From: Eubacterium sp.
GTDB lineage: Bacteria > Bacillota > Clostridia > Oscillospirales > Ruminococcaceae
Assembly: GCA_022511265.1 (NCBI GenBank)
Contig: JAFLRX010000004.1
Span: 59,249 to 123,248 of the forward strand
Direction of reading: 5' to 3'
Length of the DNA stretch: 64,000 bases
Position numbers and translations under genes: made by a program. The notes under the pieces are model-generated. The model saw only the letters and a program-made list of their open reading frames with translations, was not told where the DNA came from and did not search any database. Within the stretch, counting starts at the first letter, position 1, and each line of letters starts with the position of its first letter. This document shows positions 31,399 through 63,159 of this stretch, one piece after another.

Positions 31399-32100
31399 TT
31401 ACTTGCTCTTCTTAGCAACTACTGCTGCGCCTGCTGCAAGAACTGCAACTGCTGCTGCAACTGCGATACCCTCAGCACCGGTGTTGGTGTTGGGCTTTTC
31501 AGTCTCAGTAGGCTCTTCAGTGGGTTCAGTGGTGTCACCGGTAGTAGGCTCTTCGGTAGGCTCCTCAGTGGGCTCCTCAGTAGGCTCTTCGGTGGGCTCT
31601 TCTGCTGCTTCGCCGCCAACGGTTGCAAGAACATTGCCGTCTGCGTCAACAAATTCGATAAGCTCTACGGTGTAATCTGCACCCCAGTTCTGGAAAGCAA
31701 CGCAAGCGTAGGTGTCGGTATCAGCAAAAGGCTTGCTGTTTTCAAAGTTTACCTTAACGCCGTTTTCAACGAGAACAGCGCCGTCGTCACCGGTGCTGGA
31801 CCAGTTGGTCTGGTTCCAACCTGCAGTTTCGGACTGGAATACTACAGAGCCGCCTGCCCATACATCTTCGCCGTCTTCCCAAGAAATAACTACGTTTACG
31901 GAAGCGATGTCGATAAAGTTAACGTCTGCGACAACCTTGTCGTCGTTGCCTAATACGAATACCTGCATATTTCCGTTTGCATCAATGTTGATGTAGTCTC
32001 CTTCAAAAGCAGGGGTGATGGTTGCTGCGCTTGCAGCTACTGCCAGTGCGCTTGCTGCAACTGTTGCTGCTGCAAAAGCTGCGATCTTCTTCATGTTCAT
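31399..32100 (-). CDS. Secreted, wall-anchored repeat protein (paralogue 1)
   Basis: 233 residues that I cannot assign functionally. A signal peptide (MNMKKIAAFAAATVAASALAVAASA) precedes a beta-rich domain of about 130 residues (NMQVFVLGNDDKVVADVNF... VELIEFVDADGNVL) that looks like a carbohydrate-binding or similar sandwich. Then come EEPT repeats at about 162-195 and the tail KPNTNTGAEGIAVAAAVAV with a hydrophobic segment and KKSK. That tail resembles a sortase signal with NTNTG in place of LPxTG. The GGAGG site sets the start. The tail is shared almost exactly with the next gene. Confidence 0.75.
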   Translation of the reverse strand: MNMKKIAAFAAATVAASALAVAASAATITPAFEGDYINIDANGNMQVFVLGNDDKVVADVNFIDIASVNVVISWEDGEDVWAGGSVVFQSETAGWNQTNWSSTGDDGAVLVENGVKVNFENSKPFADTDTYACVAFQNWGADYTVELIEFVDADGNVLATVGGEAAEEPTEEPTEEPTEEPTEEPTTGDTTEPTEEPTETEKPNTNTGAEGIAVAAAVAVLAAGAAVVAKKSK

Positions 32101-32303: not shown

Positions 32304-33143
32304 TTACTTTCTCTTCTTGGAAACTACTGCTGCGCCTGCTGCGAGAACTGCAACTGCTGCTGCAACTGCAATACCTTCAGCACCGGTGTTGGTGTTGGGC
32401 TTGCTGCTGTCGCCGGTAGTAGGCTCTTCGGTAGGCTCTTCGGTAGGCTCCTCAGTGGGCTCTTCGGTAGGCTCTTCAGTAGGCTCTTCAGTAGCGCCTG
32501 CAAACTTGTTGTAGGTTACATTGCCGAGACCGTCAAATTCGATAAGGGTGTTGCCGTCCTTGTCAAGAACTTCGCACTTCTCCATCTGCCAGTTGCACAT
32601 GGAGCTCCACTGCTGTAAGCAGATCTGATAGCAGCCAACTTCGCTGATGCCTTCTTCTACGAAGGGGTTAGCAAAGCCGTTAGCCTCTACCTGATAAGTG
32701 TAGTTGCCGAGAGTCTTAACAGTAGTACCCTGACCTTCGTCCATGGTCTCAATACCTAATTCCTCGTCAATAACGCCCCACCACTGTACGCTGGGCCAGT
32801 TGTAGTCGCCACCGTCACCAAGGTCGCCACCGTTGGTAGAAAGAACTACGCCGCCGCCGATGCTGCCATCCCATAATGCACGGAAATCGTCATCAACTAC
32901 GGAGAAGGTAAATCTTGCACCTGTGATCTGAGAAAGATCTACACCGTAATCGGTTGCAGGCTTGTTCTCTGCCTCATTACCTACATTGTAAACCTGTACC
33001 AGCCAGTTGCCGGTAGAGATGTCCAGACCGGGAGCAGCCTGATCCTTAACGCTTACGTCCCAGTCAGCGCTTGCGCCGAGAGCAAGTGCGCTAACAACGG
33101 TAGCAGAAGCAACAAGACCGGCCATAATCTTTTTAAGCTTCAT
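32304..33143 (-). CDS. Secreted, wall-anchored repeat protein (paralogue 2)
   Basis: 279 residues, unassigned. A signal peptide (MKLKKIMAGLVASATVVSALALGASA) precedes a beta-rich domain of about 190 residues with many Trp/Gly (LDISTGNWLVQVYN, WPSVQWWGVIDEE, EKCEVLDKDGNTLIEFD). EEPT repeats at about 217-241 follow, then a tail KPNTNTGAEGIAVAAAVAV... KKRK nearly identical to that of the downstream paralogue. Both domains end with a similar EVLDKDGNTL/EFVDADGNVL strand, indicating common descent. It is likely displayed on the cell wall; binding of glycans is only an inference. Confidence 0.75.
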   Translation of the reverse strand: MKLKKIMAGLVASATVVSALALGASADWDVSVKDQAAPGLDISTGNWLVQVYNVGNEAENKPATDYGVDLSQITGARFTFSVVDDDFRALWDGSIGGGVVLSTNGGDLGDGGDYNWPSVQWWGVIDEELGIETMDEGQGTTVKTLGNYTYQVEANGFANPFVEEGISEVGCYQICLQQWSSMCNWQMEKCEVLDKDGNTLIEFDGLGNVTYNKFAGATEEPTEEPTEEPTEEPTEEPTEEPTTGDSSKPNTNTGAEGIAVAAAVAVLAAGAAVVSKKRK

Positions 33144-34635: not shown

Positions 34636-34694
34636 AATTCTACCGCGAAAGCGAGACATCTTACTTTTTCACTGTTCGCTATTACTTATTACTT

Positions 34695-34728
34695 CAAAAA
34701 ATCCGCCCCCTGCGGGGCGGATTTTTTA
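34695..34728. terminator. Bidirectional intrinsic terminator
   Basis: AAAATCCGCCCC-CTG-CGGGGCGGATTTTTT, with T/A runs on both sides, between the convergent exonuclease and ACP genes. Confidence 0.92.
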
Positions 34729-34965
34729 TGCTCTTGCCTTTATTATTTCGACCATTTCCCCGACGTTTTTCATCGAGGATACCTCGCCCATCTTAAAGCG
34801 GATACCGAACTCGTCCTCCACCGCACTGATAAGCGTGATGTGTGACAGGCTGTCCCAGTCGTCTATGTCGTCGGCGGTGGTGCCTTCTTCCACCTCTAAC
34901 TCGTCATCGTCAAAAACGTCTCTGAACACCTCGTTCAGCCGCTCGTATATTTCCTGTTCTTCCAT
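34726..34965 (-). CDS. Dedicated acyl carrier protein next to FkbH
   Basis: 79-residue acidic carrier protein with the phosphopantetheine attachment site DDWDSLSHITLI (Ser39), of the DltC/secondary-metabolism type rather than AcpP. The ATG lies one base after the stop of the FkbH gene, with AAAGGAAC upstream, so translation is coupled. The likely role is to carry the acyl or glyceryl group that FkbH loads. It is the last gene of the DHHW-DHHW-FkbH-ACP operon and is followed by a strong terminator. Confidence 0.92.
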   Translation of the reverse strand: MEEQEIYERLNEVFRDVFDDDELEVEEGTTADDIDDWDSLSHITLISAVEDEFGIRFKMGEVSSMKNVGEMVEIIKARA

Positions 34966-34966
34966 G

Positions 34967-36751
34967 TCATTCGTTCCTTTCTGTTTTGATGTGGGTGCTG
35001 CGCCTTGCGTAACCGTCAAGCGTCAGCCGCCAGTCGGTGTTGCCCGCGTCGTCGCAGCTTATTTGTTCAAAGCCGAAGCTTTGATAAAGATCCTTTACCA
35101 TGCGGTTTTTCGGGGTGGGGTAATAGTGCCCGATTATCTCTTTCAGCCCGCGTGCCTGTGCGCGCGCGCACAGCTCGTCAAGCATTGCCAGCTCCATCTC
35201 CCGCTTTAACACGCGGCAGGACATCAGCCATAATATCACATCCAGCCTGTCGCCGTCGACCTTTCCTATCACCACCGACACGATGCCGTTATCGCCGAAT
35301 TTATCGGTCAGGCTGCCGTACAGCCTGATGTAAGAATCATCGCCGAACACCGCCTGCATCTCGTCCTCGGTAAAGCGGCGGGTGGTCAGGTTGAACTGGT
35401 TGCTCTTGTTGGTCAGCTGGGTTATCCTCGGAATATATATCGGCAGAAAATCGTCTATCACCGCCGTCATCTCAAGGCTGTCCAGATACTCGCCGTAGTC
35501 GGCAAATTTGGACTGCTGCGCCGCGCGGGCGGCGTTCTGTTTGTACATCTCGTTGCGCTTTAGGTCGTCGCCGGAAAAGGCGGTTATCTCGAAAAAGCGC
35601 GAGCGGTCGAGGTTCTTTATATACCGCTCCGGCTCGCCGATATCAGGCACCGCAACTGCGGGCAGCTGCGCCGCCACTATCGCTCGCTCGGCAGGGTTAT
35701 CGTCCACAAACACCAGCGCGTCCTCGCCGATGTTCAGCCCTGCCGCAATGTCGGCGATGTTTCTGTCCTTGTTTTCCCAGTTGGCTTTTATTATGATAAA
35801 ATCGTCGGGCTTCAGGCTGCCGGACGGGTGGTTAAGTCCCGCCAGGGCGTTTTCCTCATCGTTTTTCGAGCAGACGGTCAGCATTACGCCGCTGTCGCGT
35901 ACCAGCCCCAGATACTTCTGAAACTCGCTGTACACCTGACCCATGTGGGTCTCCTGTCCTATCTCGATGCCCTCTACGCCGTCGTCGCCGACAACACCGC
36001 CCCACAGCGTGTTGTCAAGGTCTAATACCAGCGACTTTTTGTTTTTGCCGAAAACCGACTTTATAATTGCCGCTACATTAAAAGAGAAGTCCGGTATCGC
36101 GGGTACGCACATAGCATACTTATACATATGCCAGTAGGACGGATCGCTCCACTCGTCCAAGCCCCAGCACGCGCTGAGATAGTTTATATCGTTGATGTAA
36201 AAGCCGTCATTTTCGGCGGCATAAGCCGCGAACGCGGTGTTCAGGCGATTGACGAAATTCACCCTGCCGCGGTGGTCGTACGCGTCACGGTTGCCCATTA
36301 TGCGGAAATACGGCAGCTCGAAATTATTCTGTATTATCGGGCATTTATATTTGCTCTTTATCGCGCTCCACGCGGCGGAGAACTTTTCCAGCTCGGCGTT
36401 AAGCAACGCGTCGGCTGCCGCCTTGTCCGCACCTATACTCGGAAACTCGGTGATATTGCGGGAGGAGGTGTGGATAAAGACAATATCGGGGTTGAATTCT
36501 TCCAGCTCGGGGTTGTCAAACACCGCGTCCTGCCACCAGCGGTTATATTCCGACAGATAAAAGGTCGGCTGTATGCCGCTGTCCAGCAGGAATAATTCCA
36601 GCATGTCTACTATCTCGTTGGCGGTAGAGCCGCCCAGCACCGCTATTTTCTTGGCGATGCGCGGTCTGCCGTCCGCAAGCAGTGCGCGCCGCAGCGAGCG
36701 CTTTTTCTTTAATATATACCCCGCGTCGAAGGGATATTCTAATTCTTTCAC
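34967..36751 (-). CDS. FkbH-like HAD-IIIC enzyme (glyceryl-ACP-forming type)
   Basis: 594 residues. An N-terminal SGNH-like region (IAVLGGSTANEIVDML, about 37-220) precedes a HAD-IIIC domain with LVLDLDNTLWGG (Asp244, Asp246) and VFVDDNPAER (Asp350, Asp351), then a GNAT-like C-terminus with the family stretch TQLTNKSNQFNLTTRRF. Characterised FkbH proteins take 1,3-bisphosphoglycerate, remove phosphate and load the glyceryl unit on an ACP. A GTG start is set by AAGGGGGATACCC. The adjacent ACP and DHHW lipoproteins suggest envelope modification rather than polyketide synthesis; no PKS gene is nearby. Confidence 0.92.
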   Translation of the reverse strand: MKELEYPFDAGYILKKKRSLRRALLADGRPRIAKKIAVLGGSTANEIVDMLELFLLDSGIQPTFYLSEYNRWWQDAVFDNPELEEFNPDIVFIHTSSRNITEFPSIGADKAAADALLNAELEKFSAAWSAIKSKYKCPIIQNNFELPYFRIMGNRDAYDHRGRVNFVNRLNTAFAAYAAENDGFYINDINYLSACWGLDEWSDPSYWHMYKYAMCVPAIPDFSFNVAAIIKSVFGKNKKSLVLDLDNTLWGGVVGDDGVEGIEIGQETHMGQVYSEFQKYLGLVRDSGVMLTVCSKNDEENALAGLNHPSGSLKPDDFIIIKANWENKDRNIADIAAGLNIGEDALVFVDDNPAERAIVAAQLPAVAVPDIGEPERYIKNLDRSRFFEITAFSGDDLKRNEMYKQNAARAAQQSKFADYGEYLDSLEMTAVIDDFLPIYIPRITQLTNKSNQFNLTTRRFTEDEMQAVFGDDSYIRLYGSLTDKFGDNGIVSVVIGKVDGDRLDVILWLMSCRVLKREMELAMLDELCARAQARGLKEIIGHYYPTPKNRMVKDLYQSFGFEQISCDDAGNTDWRLTLDGYARRSTHIKTERNE

Positions 36752-36807
36752 GGGTATCCCCCTTGCTAAGTAGAAATCTTTTACAATTCGGAATTATGAA
36801 TTCCGCA

Positions 36808-38070
36808 TTATATATTTGCTTTCGCTTTGACCGTTCTTATATACTCAAAGTATTCGCAGTTGCCGCCCGCGACGGTGTAGGCGCAGTTGGCGAACAGCAG
36901 GTCGGTCGCCTTGACCTTTTTGCAGAAGTCCACCGCGTTTATCTCGCAATAGCGCAGGTCTATGACGTAGATATTCTCAAACGCCTCGGTCAAAAAAGGT
37001 ATCAATGCGTTGCCGTAGCTTTCCTTAATGACAACAAGATTACGGCCGTTCTTGACGTCGGTCTTTATATGGGTCATCTTGTCGTCGCCGCCGAGGAAGG
37101 TAAGATAATAGCTGCTGGCGTCGCTGACGATGAACAGATTGCCGTCATAGCCGTTGGAATATTTGCGGTCATAATAGCTTGTCTCCAGCTTGGACGCGTT
37201 GGGAGAATAGTACACGGTGTAATCCTCCGGGTCGTTGTTCAGCTTTTCGTCCTCGCTGTAATAATACATCGAACCGACATAGTCGGGGCAGGTGACCGCC
37301 TTGTATTTATCCAGCGGGGAAATAGTCAGCTTTAAGTCCTTACAGAATTTCTCCGCCGCGTAATATGCGCCCAGCGGCATCCAGTGGTGGTCGGTGCGCG
37401 CGTATATCGGCTCGTCGGTGTGAGACTTCAGCACATCGTATACCTTTATGTTGGTTATGCCGGAGCTGGACAGCTCTTTCTCCACATATTCTATCTTGTC
37501 CTTTTGCAGCTCGCTGTAGCCCTTATAATCGTCGGGGTTGTAAAAATCCACCGAGGTGGGTATCACCATCGAGCAGACATTGACCTCAGGCAGTGCCGCC
37601 TGAAATTCCTTTACATTCTCGACATACATATCGCAATATCCGTATGTCCCGCCGAAGAACATTATTCCCCAATAATGGTTATTGATACCCGCCACCAGTA
37701 TCCCGCTTTCGCCTATTTTGCGGTAGCTGTTTATTTTGTCGTTCGGCTTTTCGGTCGCAGGGGTAGAGGAGGTCTCCGGCGCGGTGGTGGTCGCCGCCGT
37801 GGTGGTAAGGCTTATCTGCGGCACCGTCGTAACGGAGGACTCCGATACGGGGGCGGTCGCCGACTCTGACGCGTTTGCCGAGGTTTCCGGCGCGCCGCTT
37901 TCCGTTACCGCCGCAGTCGGCTGCGGTGTGGTGGAAACCACGCTTTGCGGTGTATCCTCCGGCTCCGGCACGCCGCTGAGGTCGTATGTATTGCAGCCTG
38001 AGCCGAGTGCCGCAAAGCCCGCCGCCAGCACCAGTGCCGCCGCGGAATATATTATCTGTCGTTTTTTCAT
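36808..38070 (-). CDS. DHHW-family (permuted SGNH/AlgX-like) lipoprotein 1
   Basis: 420 residues. A signal peptide ends in a lipobox LGSGC (Cys26), followed by a Ser/Thr/Pro-rich tether to about residue 110, then the DHHW domain. The eponymous TDHHWMPLGAYYAA lies at 226-239, and the later IKESYGNALIPF holds a candidate nucleophile Ser351. D-x-H before Ser is the permuted order known from AlgX/AlgJ O-acetyltransferases. It therefore probably transfers or hydrolyses acyl groups on an extracellular polymer. It lies 56 bases before FkbH and is a paralogue of the next gene upstream. Confidence 0.88.
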   Translation of the reverse strand: MKKRQIIYSAAALVLAAGFAALGSGCNTYDLSGVPEPEDTPQSVVSTTPQPTAAVTESGAPETSANASESATAPVSESSVTTVPQISLTTTAATTTAPETSSTPATEKPNDKINSYRKIGESGILVAGINNHYWGIMFFGGTYGYCDMYVENVKEFQAALPEVNVCSMVIPTSVDFYNPDDYKGYSELQKDKIEYVEKELSSSGITNIKVYDVLKSHTDEPIYARTDHHWMPLGAYYAAEKFCKDLKLTISPLDKYKAVTCPDYVGSMYYYSEDEKLNNDPEDYTVYYSPNASKLETSYYDRKYSNGYDGNLFIVSDASSYYLTFLGGDDKMTHIKTDVKNGRNLVVIKESYGNALIPFLTEAFENIYVIDLRYCEINAVDFCKKVKATDLLFANCAYTVAGGNCEYFEYIRTVKAKANI

Positions 38071-38095
38071 AATATCACCGTTTTTATGATAATGA

Positions 38096-38118
38096 ATTGC
38101 GCGGCAAAGCCGCGCAAT
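38096..38118 (-). repeat. Intercistronic hairpin between the two DHHW genes
   Basis: A perfect 10-base stem ATTGCGCGGC / GCCGCGCAAT with a three-base loop, and no T-run after it. It may stabilise or process the mRNA. The AAAG-type loop and flanking TAATGAAT resemble the variable cores of the GTGAATA repeats. Confidence 0.5.
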
Positions 38119-38122
38119 CTGT

Positions 38123-39310
38123 TTATTTTCCTAACAGGTTCTCTCCCATTCTCTCTGCGTTTTCGCCCACGGCAGAGAAGGTACACATAGTAAACAGCAC
38201 ATCGGTTATGCCGTTGTCCTTGACAAAATCAGGTCCGTTCAGGTTGTCGAAGTATCTTACGTCGCAGACGTATATTTCCTCAAAGCCGTCAACAAAGAAC
38301 GGTATCTCGGCATTGCCGTAGCTGTCCTTGAACACGCAGAGTTTTCTGCCGTTTTTGTTTTCGGTCTCTATCTTGACTATCTTCTCATCGCCGCCGAGGA
38401 ACATTGTATAGCTTTCGCCCGGGTCATCCTTGTAGATAAATATGCTGTCAAGGTATCTCGCGCTGTAGTCTTCCTTAAACTCGGTGGTGTAATAGGTGGC
38501 GGTGTAGTCGGTGGAGGGCTTGTAATAGATAAAGGTCTCGGGGTCGTTTTTGATGTCGACGTCATAGCCCGAAAATCTGTACATAGTACCGACAAAGCCC
38601 TCTATTTCTTTCTTTTCGTATTCGTCCAGGTCCTTTATCTCTATCTGTGCCATCTCGCAGAACGCCTTTGCGGCATAATACGCGCCCAGCGGCATCCAGT
38701 GGTGGTCGGTGCGGGTGTAGATGTATTCGTTCTTATGCTCCTCCAACGCGCTGTACGCGTCTACATTGATAATACCCTCAAGCTGGTTCGCAATATTGTT
38801 TATCGAATTGAGATGGCTTGCGTTGTAGGATTCAAACTTTTCGGGCAGATAAAACGCGCTCTGGGTGGGGACAACCATGTTGAATACGTTAACGGTGTCG
38901 CCTACCTTTTTCTTGAACTCGTTAAGGTAAGCGGCGTAATCATCGCCGCTGCCGCCGCCGTAAAAGGATATGCCCCATACATGTCCTTCGGAGTCGGTCA
39001 TCTTCAGCAGACCGTTGGTCTCTACGCCGTCAACGCCCACCAGCTCTTTATCGCCGCTTTCTACCTCGCCGGAGACGTCGCTGTCTTGCCCGCCCGAGCT
39101 TTCTACCGAGGACTCGTCATCCGAGCCGGGGAAAGAAATGATTATATCCCCACTGCCCGCGTCCGAGCTTTCTGTCTGCTGTGTGCTGCTTTCGCCCTGC
39201 GAAGAGCTTTCGGGTACGGATGCGGTGCTGCCGACCGTTTCCTCCGCGCAGCCCGCCAACAGGCTGACGCACAATGCCGCCGCCGTTATTGTCTTTATCT
39301 TTCTATTCAT
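38123..39310 (-). CDS. DHHW-family (permuted SGNH/AlgX-like) lipoprotein 2
   Basis: 395 residues, paralogous to the gene downstream. The lipobox is LLAGC (Cys21), then a Ser/Asp/Glu-rich tether to about residue 90. TDHHWMPLGAYYAAKAFC lies at 201-218 and FKDSYGNAEIPF has candidate nucleophile Ser330. Both proteins also share VVPT and an FLGG(D)(D/E)K-(I/M) stretch. It is expected to be anchored outside the membrane. It is first in the operon, directly behind its own promoter. Two copies suggest two acceptors or sequential steps. Confidence 0.88.
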   Translation of the reverse strand: MNRKIKTITAAALCVSLLAGCAEETVGSTASVPESSSQGESSTQQTESSDAGSGDIIISFPGSDDESSVESSGGQDSDVSGEVESGDKELVGVDGVETNGLLKMTDSEGHVWGISFYGGGSGDDYAAYLNEFKKKVGDTVNVFNMVVPTQSAFYLPEKFESYNASHLNSINNIANQLEGIINVDAYSALEEHKNEYIYTRTDHHWMPLGAYYAAKAFCEMAQIEIKDLDEYEKKEIEGFVGTMYRFSGYDVDIKNDPETFIYYKPSTDYTATYYTTEFKEDYSARYLDSIFIYKDDPGESYTMFLGGDEKIVKIETENKNGRKLCVFKDSYGNAEIPFFVDGFEEIYVCDVRYFDNLNGPDFVKDNGITDVLFTMCTFSAVGENAERMGENLLGK

Positions 39311-39354
39311 AATATATTACTCCTTCAAAAAAGAAAGTTTTTTGCTAATATATA

Positions 39355-39383
39355 AGTATATCACACCGTTTTTTAAAATACAA
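39355..39383 (-). promoter_or_regulatory. Promoter of the DHHW-FkbH-ACP operon
   Basis: Read leftward: TTGTAT, 17 bases, TATACT, about 45 bases before the DHHW 2 start. The operon is therefore separable from the membrane-protein gene upstream. Confidence 0.7.
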
Positions 39384-40828: not shown

Positions 40829-41175
40829 CCTGCAACTTTATTGCGCGGTCGCGGGGATATTTATCCGTGAGGAAAGTCCGAGCATCACAGAGCAGGGCAG
40901 CTGCTAACGGCAGCCGGAGGCGACTCTAGGGCGAGTGCAACAGAAATATACCGCATCCCTCGTGGGTGTAAGGGTGGAAAGGCGAGGTAAGAGCTCACCG
41001 CGGGACGGGAGACCGCTCCCGCCTGTAAACCCTGTCCGATGCAACGCCGATTGGTTTCGGGATAAAACCGCTTGCTCGGCGGTCCCGGATTAAGGCGGCT
41101 TGAGCCTTTCGGCGACGAAAGGCGTAGATAGATGACCGTACACAACAGAACTCGGCTTATAGATAAAGTTGCGGG
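40829..41175 (+). ncRNA. rnpB: RNase P RNA (catalytic RNA maturing tRNA 5' ends)
   Basis: The universal core is readable: GAGGAAAGTCCGAGC early, GGTAAGAGCTCACCGC in the middle, and ACAGAACTCGGCTTATAG near the 3' end, which form P4 and neighbouring helices. The ends CCTGCAACTTTAT and ATAAAGTTGCGGG pair as P1 and define the limits. About 347 bases is normal. Confidence 0.96.
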
Positions 41176-62901: not shown

Positions 62902-63159
62902 AAAAAACGCCCTCTGCATTGCAGAGGGCGTATGTCACGCGGTACCACCTCAATTTATCGGCAATAGCTGCCGACAATCTCTAAAGCCTTAACGCGGCAG
63001 ACGGGCGCGGCTTGTCACCGTGCCGGCTCGGGGGTGTAACTTCACATACGCCGTTTACTGCCTCGCACCGTACGGCAGCTCTCTGAAAAATTGGGCGCAG
63101 CTATTTGTCCCTTCATAGCCTGTATATTATAATATGAATAACTTATTAAGAAAGTCTGT
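62902..63159 (-). promoter_or_regulatory. T-box leader, tyrosine-specific, upstream of aroF-tyrS
   Basis: Read on the minus strand: TTTTTCAGAGAGCTGCCG (stem I, AGAGAG motif), GGTGCGAGGCAG, then GAAGT-TAC-ACCCCCGAGCC, in which TAC (63036-63038) sits where the leucine leader has CTC. The T-box GAGGTGGTACCGCG lies at about 62938-62951. The terminator is CGCCCTCTGCA / TGCAGAGGGCG (62908-62930) with a T6 tail. The specifier agrees with tyrS being in the operon. Confidence 0.93.

Follow-up and report, generated by a model that had tools for sequence, protein, structure and literature searches.

An FkbH enzyme, a carrier protein, DHHW proteins, and an unlinked MBOAT as a predicted Dlt-like glycerylation pathway in Eubacterium sp.

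We analyzed a 64,000-nucleotide stretch of Eubacterium sp. DNA (assembly GCA_022511265.1, contig JAFLRX010000004.1, positions 59,249 to 123,248 of the forward strand), here called the window; coordinates are window positions unless a locus or another contig is named. Four adjoining genes on its minus strand encode two proteins of the DHHW family (DHHWa and DHHWb), an FkbH-type enzyme, and a stand-alone acyl carrier protein (ACP). Together with MBOAT2, a membrane-bound O-acyltransferase encoded on another contig of the same genome, they probably constitute a Dlt-like pathway whose predicted product is a cell-envelope polymer bearing D-glyceryl esters. We hold this reading with moderate confidence.

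RESULTS

We examined FkbH loci from related genomes, using the best 80 of 557 confirmed loci plus 60 further stretches, in which open frames were called and scanned with the window proteins and with profiles built from these families. A close FkbH was present in 128 loci (80 + 31 + 17). In 34 of them (20 + 9 + 5), an MBOAT of the MBOAT2 type and a DHHW gene both lie upstream of FkbH on the same strand. An ACP gene follows FkbH in 33 of these; the remaining one, L028, ends inside FkbH. Six loci resemble the window in having two DHHW genes and no MBOAT (among them L202, cut by a contig end), and in two others a DHHW gene is present and the contig ends in or before the MBOAT. Of the 119 loci in which the sequence extends far enough, 102 (62/75, 26/29, and 14/15) have an ACP gene at most 1.9 kb downstream of FkbH. 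Several loci are near-copies of one another (L022/L025/L205, L070/L072, and L078/L175), so the 34 loci are not 34 independent cases. An association of FkbH and ACP with MBOAT and DHHW genes in relatives, on which a preliminary description of the window had staked its reading, was thus observed, and the MBOAT2 of the window's genome falls in the MBOAT branch of these loci.

The genome of the window comprises 2.26 Mb in 57 contigs and is 99.87% complete; the window lies on contig C34. A genome-wide search for an MBOAT, which the preliminary description had called for, found two genes, both on contig C12: MBOAT1 at 53.3 kb and MBOAT2 at 108.9 kb, each with a DHHW gene next downstream. In the window's lineage, then, the MBOAT gene is set apart from the FkbH row. 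In a tree of 72 MBOAT rows, 33 FkbH-adjacent MBOATs, 8 not beside FkbH, and the MBOAT2 of the window's genome form one branch, with a support of 100 in the Shimodaira-Hasegawa-like approximate likelihood ratio test (SH-aLRT). Outside this branch fall MBOAT1, nine paralogues, and 20 control MBOATs, the last hand-picked from the next-best MBOAT matches and not strictly in rank order. All 20 controls have a DHHW neighbor; within the 3.8 to 13 kb of sequence retrieved, none has FkbH or an ACP.

The same partnership was seen across whole genomes. Among 293 genomes of the class, MBOAT2 matches of at least 52% identity were listed for 7, counting the window's own, and all 7 are among the 18 with FkbH at an E value of ≤4e-179; in the remaining 11 of these 18, the MBOATs are more distant. 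A chance probability of 9e-10 for 7 of 7 genomes takes no account of kinship and was not used. Twelve genomes were searched for MBOAT2 elsewhere; it was present at 59 to 63% identity in those of L034 and of the five two-DHHW loci from the 80-locus set, and in the rest the MBOAT of L038's genome reached 51% and the other five 36 to 43%. On the MBOAT tree and the genome co-occurrence, MBOAT1 was rejected as the partner of FkbH and the ACP.

Seven of the eight MBOAT2 genes away from FkbH group with that of the window's genome, nested inside the FkbH-adjacent ones (support of 91), so the separation of MBOAT2 from the FkbH row looks like a single later move. For six of these seven, the retrieved sequence showed no DHHW gene next to MBOAT2; in the seventh, L222, it breaks off just after MBOAT2. 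Only the window genome's MBOAT2 has an adjoining DHHW gene in this group.

MBOAT2 ends in FIYWHF, an FxYxxF motif. The FxYxxF tyrosine is acetylated in PatA and carries D-alanine in DltX (PMC12148441; this and the other papers are cited from excerpts). Judging from sequence, the motif at the end of the MBOAT would take the place of DltX, and no separate DltX-like small gene with FxYxxF was found in the row among frames of 60 amino acids or more. The motif ends 40 of the 42 members of the MBOAT2 branch; one of the other two, L222, is cut by a contig end. The WHG histidine of MBOAT2 (His 318) is invariant in 35 sequences.

One loop sets the MBOAT2 branch apart, being YLLYVPIFGKR-like inside and YIPLGGNR-like outside. 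The PLGG type is kept in all 20 controls, in 8 of 8 paralogues (L135 to L142), and in MBOAT1. It is gone from MBOAT2, from 8 of 8 of its kin away from FkbH, and from 32 of 33 linked rows of the MBOAT2 type, the exception (L077) lying outside the branch. Of the remaining FkbH-linked MBOATs, 34 of 36 whose locus includes an ACP likewise lack the PLGG loop, and all three whose locus has none keep it. The loop is present in 7 of 13 unlinked MBOATs; the 6 without it are located 6 to 9 kb upstream on the same strand. Thirteen MBOAT rows that were short, cut, or without the W-x-R anchor were dropped from the comparison.

The changed loop of MBOAT2 aligns with helix HC of DltB, whose Met302, Val305, Ile306, Met309, and Lys312 contact DltC (PMC11035591); DltB residue numbers in the printed alignment were counted by hand. 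That a carrier protein belongs to the MBOAT2 row and that the PLGG loop is gone both bear on whether the donor is an acyl-coenzyme A (acyl-CoA) or a carrier. In a structure comparison with VIA-align 2, made with single-chain models and holding for the matches listed, DltB was the best match of the MBOAT2 model.

The gene order DHHWa-DHHWb-FkbH-ACP on the minus strand, as first described, was confirmed, and the Pfam and NCBIfam scores of the proteins are above cut-offs; the gaps between the genes are 52, 56, and 1 base. FkbH (34967 to 36751, 594 amino acids, with a GTG start after GGGGG) is the predicted glyceryl loader and scored 34 bits for FkbH_N (cut-off of 27) and 261.5 bits for TIGR01686 (cut-off of 146.65). 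It consists of the N-terminal FkbH_N domain, a HAD domain (DLDNT and DDNPA), and a GNAT-like part with an MSCRV cysteine, which we take to be the glyceryl carrier. D244 and D246 of DLDNT are invariant across 28 sequences. SCR is present in 126 of the 128 close FkbH frames, 118 times as MSCRV; the two exceptions are L202, which is truncated, and L019, which gave no match. The best structural match of the FkbH model was 3slr, with GNAT acetyltransferases next. Because 3slr covers FkbH residues 19 to 393, the GNAT-like part would be the C-terminal third in this model.

The ACP (34726 to 34965, minus strand, 79 amino acids) starts 1 base after the FkbH stop codon and has a DSL phosphopantetheine site. 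It scored 23.8 bits for PP-binding (cut-off of 20.8) and stays below the cut-off of every NCBIfam ACP model listed (best score of 40.4 against 66), several of which the genome's other ACP passes.

DHHWa (38123 to 39310, minus strand, 395 amino acids) and DHHWb (36808 to 38070, minus strand, 420 amino acids) belong to the DHHW family PF14286, with 125.3 and 155.5 bits, respectively (cut-off of 25). The permuted-SGNH motifs ascribed to them earlier were found in both: DHHW at 202, KDSYGN at 328, and DVRY at 350 to 353 in DHHWa and DHHW at 227, KESYGN at 349, and DLRY in DHHWb. Family score, DHHW motif, serine, and DxRY block are therefore all present in both, and DHHWa is a predicted acyltransferase. 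The claim that both are lipid anchored fits DHHWa, which is lipoprotein-like with a canonical box (LLAGC), and is weaker for DHHWb, whose box (LGSGC) is noncanonical and whose catalytic motifs are intact. The closest solved structure to DHHWa is 4nzk (E value of 6.8e-149), which is EUBSIR_00411 of Eubacterium siraeum, a protein without biochemical characterization according to the excerpt of a review (PMC9487903). Both proteins also matched PatB1 of Bacillus cereus (5v8d and 5v8e), described in that review as a secondary-wall-polymer O-acetyltransferase and the first characterized DHHW enzyme (PMC9487903).

In the FkbH and MBOAT2 loci of relatives, the serine and [DE]xHW are both kept in 51 of 51 DHHW proteins. 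The protein beside MBOAT2 on contig C12 (locus L010, 8304 to 9959) has KDDYLS in place of KDSYGN and DTHW in place of DHHW and is the sole member without the serine among 17 aligned. It still matches PF14286 positions 1 to 385 and is possibly a pseudo-transferase. The DHHW neighbor of MBOAT1 carries the serine motif KDSYAN. In three loci, the N-terminal part of a DHHW protein is a separate small gene between the MBOAT and DHHW genes (L063, 7111 to 7467; L071, 7077 to 7451; L177, 7435 to 7797), and that of L063 corresponds to PF14286 positions 1 to 74 by Pfam. These small genes hint that a DHHW protein without the serine could act as a dock.

Searches of the whole genome found one FkbH, two PP-binding domains, one ketosynthase, three AMP-binding proteins, and one ACPS-type transferase. 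The lone ketosynthase, at about 24.9 kb of the window, has the other ACP gene some 5.5 kb away and so probably serves fatty acid synthesis. These counts leave FkbH with one adjoining ACP and no synthase found by these searches, in keeping with the earlier remark that no polyketide or peptide synthase is nearby, and no distant biosynthetic cluster was found that it could serve. No DltA-type AMP-forming ligase was found in the cluster; the three AMP-binding matches map to contigs C8, C38, and C39 and none to C34 or C12.

An intrinsic terminator lies 3′ of the ACP gene (34690 to 34732, minus strand; −24.8 kcal/mol, z of −5.78), as strong as the preliminary description had claimed; none of 200 shuffled sequences was equally stable. 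The promoter that it placed ahead of DHHWa fared less well. The hexamers TTGTAT-N17-TATACT are present on the minus strand at 39355 to 39383, but they are weak, agreeing with the consensus at 8 of 12 positions. With TTGTAT agreeing at just 3 of 6 positions of the −35 consensus, the site was not listed by a promoter scan, and since that scan gave 12 promoter-like sites against 5.2 expected and omitted this one, promoters were given no weight. We infer that the four genes share one transcript, although a stable hairpin sits between the two DHHW genes (38090 to 38122, minus strand; −18.5 kcal/mol, z of −4.95). This hairpin has no U run on the coding strand, its stem at 38096 to 38118 was listed for the opposite strand, and it may be a processing or attenuation site.

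Elsewhere in the window, two adjoining minus-strand genes (31399 to 32100 and 32304 to 33143) encode proteins with EPTEEPTEEP repeats and a similar hydrophobic C-terminal tail (NTNTGAEGIAVAAAVAVLAAGAAVV). Rfam placed a bacterial class A RNase P RNA at 40833 to 41175 (plus strand) and a T-box leader at 62921 to 63125 (minus strand).

DISCUSSION

The Dlt system, DltA-DltC-DltB-DltX-DltD, D-alanylates teichoic acid. The pathway proposed here would work like Dlt with another loader. FkbH would take a glyceryl group from 1,3-bisphosphoglycerate, its HAD domain would remove the phosphate, and the group would be loaded onto the phosphopantetheine arm of the private ACP. Glyceryl-ACP would then dock on the cytoplasmic face of MBOAT2, where DltB binds DltC, and MBOAT2 would move the acyl group to the tyrosine of its own C-terminal FIYWHF on the outer face. 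From there, the DHHW proteins would accept it on their serine and pass it to an outer polymer. The DHHW protein without the serine, beside MBOAT2, might serve as a dock, with DHHWa and DHHWb doing the chemistry. The preliminary description had read FkbH as the loader, the ACP as the DltC analogue, and the DHHW proteins as the DltD/AlgX analogues. This reading gains support, as the genome has its MBOAT, relatives conserve the association, and no competing cluster came to light.

Dlt and the proposed pathway share a dedicated carrier, an MBOAT, a tyrosine shuttle motif of the FxYxxF type, and an SGNH partner, and the changed loop of MBOAT2 aligns with the DltC-binding helix of DltB. In relatives, as in Dlt, a private carrier is encoded beside the MBOAT and SGNH genes, whereas the window genome has its MBOAT on another contig. 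They differ in the loader (FkbH here, the ligase DltA in Dlt), in the shuttle motif (fused to the MBOAT here, on separate DltX in Dlt), and in the SGNH partner (DHHW here, DltD in Dlt). Unlike DltB, both MBOATs of the window's genome end in FxYxxF and adjoin DHHW genes. Lacking DltA in the row and a separate DltX, and drawing on another SGNH family, the pathway is not a Dlt system.

An MBOAT with a C-terminal FxYxxF and a DHHW or SGNH partner is also found in PatA1/PatB1 of the B. cereus secondary wall polymer, PatA/PatB, and AlgI/AlgJ/AlgX. Systems of the Pat and Alg kinds are described as using acyl-CoA without a carrier protein, and in the excerpted text MBOAT/SGNH pathways other than Dlt are said to have none (PMC12148441). 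Here, in contrast, the row includes an ACP together with its loader, so this is not an ordinary Pat pair. Tetronate and methoxymalonyl clusters share an FkbH-like enzyme with a stand-alone ACP (e.g., Mad7/Mad8, likened here by description; PMC7489565). The present row differs in having no polyketide synthase and in its membrane acyltransferase and outer-face DHHW partners. CcsH/CcsI of clostridial cellulose loci are likewise an MBOAT and DHHW pair in Clostridia, but the genes named beside them in the excerpt are a cellulose synthase, a glycosyl hydrolase, and a gene of unknown function, not FkbH or ACP (PMC7710045). In the titles and abstract openings listed from the literature within reach, which mostly left out subscription papers and in some cases covered the first entries of much longer lists, we found no report of this gene set, though an earlier description is possible. 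FkbH with MBOAT gave only work on aeruginosin-type peptides, by title, and FkbH with SGNH gave none.

Several observations weigh against the pathway as proposed. FxYxxF also ends 30 of 30 MBOATs outside the branch; it is no specific sign and marks the shuttle mechanism, not this pathway. The PLGG loop is kept in four MBOATs near an ACP (L042, L045, L077, and L219). The loop needs two changes on the tree, with one informative pair and a statistical test without power, which makes it a pointer and not a test. DltB was the only bacterial MBOAT among the matches listed, so that structural match carries little weight. In genome G097, an MBOAT cut by a contig end matches at 51% identity, and the only FkbH there is a distant one. 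No DHHW gene lies upstream of FkbH in 86 of the 128 loci. L227 is an MBOAT2-DHHW-ACP row without FkbH; the FkbH of its genome lies elsewhere (L038), in another FkbH branch, with no adjoining ACP found. The FkbH of L184, though in a full row, falls outside the main FkbH set. MaoC-like genes occur in 22 of 129 FkbH loci and SDR genes in 15 of 129 (one of each, both in L211, confirmed by Pfam), and other loci have no MBOAT in reach; FkbH-ACP is therefore not bound to this pathway alone. Finally, glyceryl loading by FkbH is known from polyketide pathways, and this clade may load something else.

FkbH-ACP rows with MaoC-like and partly SDR genes, followed by a different MBOAT or none, were seen at L079, L211, L188, L199, and similar loci. 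Some lie amid polysaccharide-type genes, and by their gene content these rows look like further FkbH-ACP acylation pathways.

The last of the objections leads to the alternative that survives best, in which the machine is one envelope acylation pathway and its cargo is another phosphorylated acid or a glyceryl group altered on the ACP. The MaoC-like and SDR genes would fit such a cargo, as would the identity of only about 27 to 39% between the window FkbH and more distant FkbH matches, some of them in open frames of more than 2,700 codons. However, none of the 34 MBOAT2-DHHW-FkbH loci has those MaoC-like or SDR genes within 7 kb, and each of the 12 distinct distant FkbH proteins compared, including two encoded in very long frames, shares the HAD motif and SCR cysteine. 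We consider another cargo unlikely and, by analogy with FkbH in polyketide clusters (PMC7489565), favor glyceryl.

Two unlinked functions could also be at work, with FkbH-ACP feeding a cytoplasmic acyltransferase and the DHHW proteins acting as acetyl transferases with MBOAT1 and acetyl-CoA. One branch of FkbH loci has ACP, MaoC-like, and SDR genes with no MBOAT found, and DHHW-MBOAT pairs without FkbH are common, as in all 20 controls. Yet the tree set that holds the window's FkbH comprises 43 rows, 34 with MBOAT2 and DHHW and 6 with DHHW only. MBOAT2 co-occurs with FkbH across genomes, and MBOAT1 already has its own serine-bearing DHHW partner. Such a division seems to us more doubtful still.

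That DHHWa and DHHWb are esterases, removing acyl groups and not adding them, is very improbable: many SGNH proteins are hydrolases (PMC9487903), but the first characterized DHHW enzyme is an O-acetyltransferase, and in relatives an MBOAT and a carrier-loading enzyme are encoded alongside the DHHW protein. Least credible is secondary metabolism, which we rejected on genome content; supplying a glycerate unit from FkbH and ACP is the known role in polyketide pathways (PMC7489565), but a polyketide or peptide synthase to receive it would have to be sought beyond the single ketosynthase and two PP-binding matches, and the row has no oxidation or methylation genes.

Taken together, the envelope pathway with a glyceryl cargo can be set in a wider account, for which we find the case evenly balanced. 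It would be a second carrier-fed MBOAT-SGNH pathway beside Dlt, in which FkbH leads to glycolytic glycerate being esterified to the envelope. The MBOAT2 branch and a lineage of many Lachnospiraceae would each have taken up FkbH-ACP and rebuilt the loop at the DltB docking helix, and the window's genome would split the work among MBOAT2, a DHHW dock without the serine, and two free lipoprotein transferases. If true, glycerate would be a new surface ester and FkbH a new loader in envelope acylation, and wall decoration would be tied to a glycolytic intermediate. Carrier-protein feeding of an MBOAT would not be peculiar to Dlt, and a function would be at hand for the solved structure 4NZK and for the clostridial FkbH-ACP pairs with no adjoining synthase.

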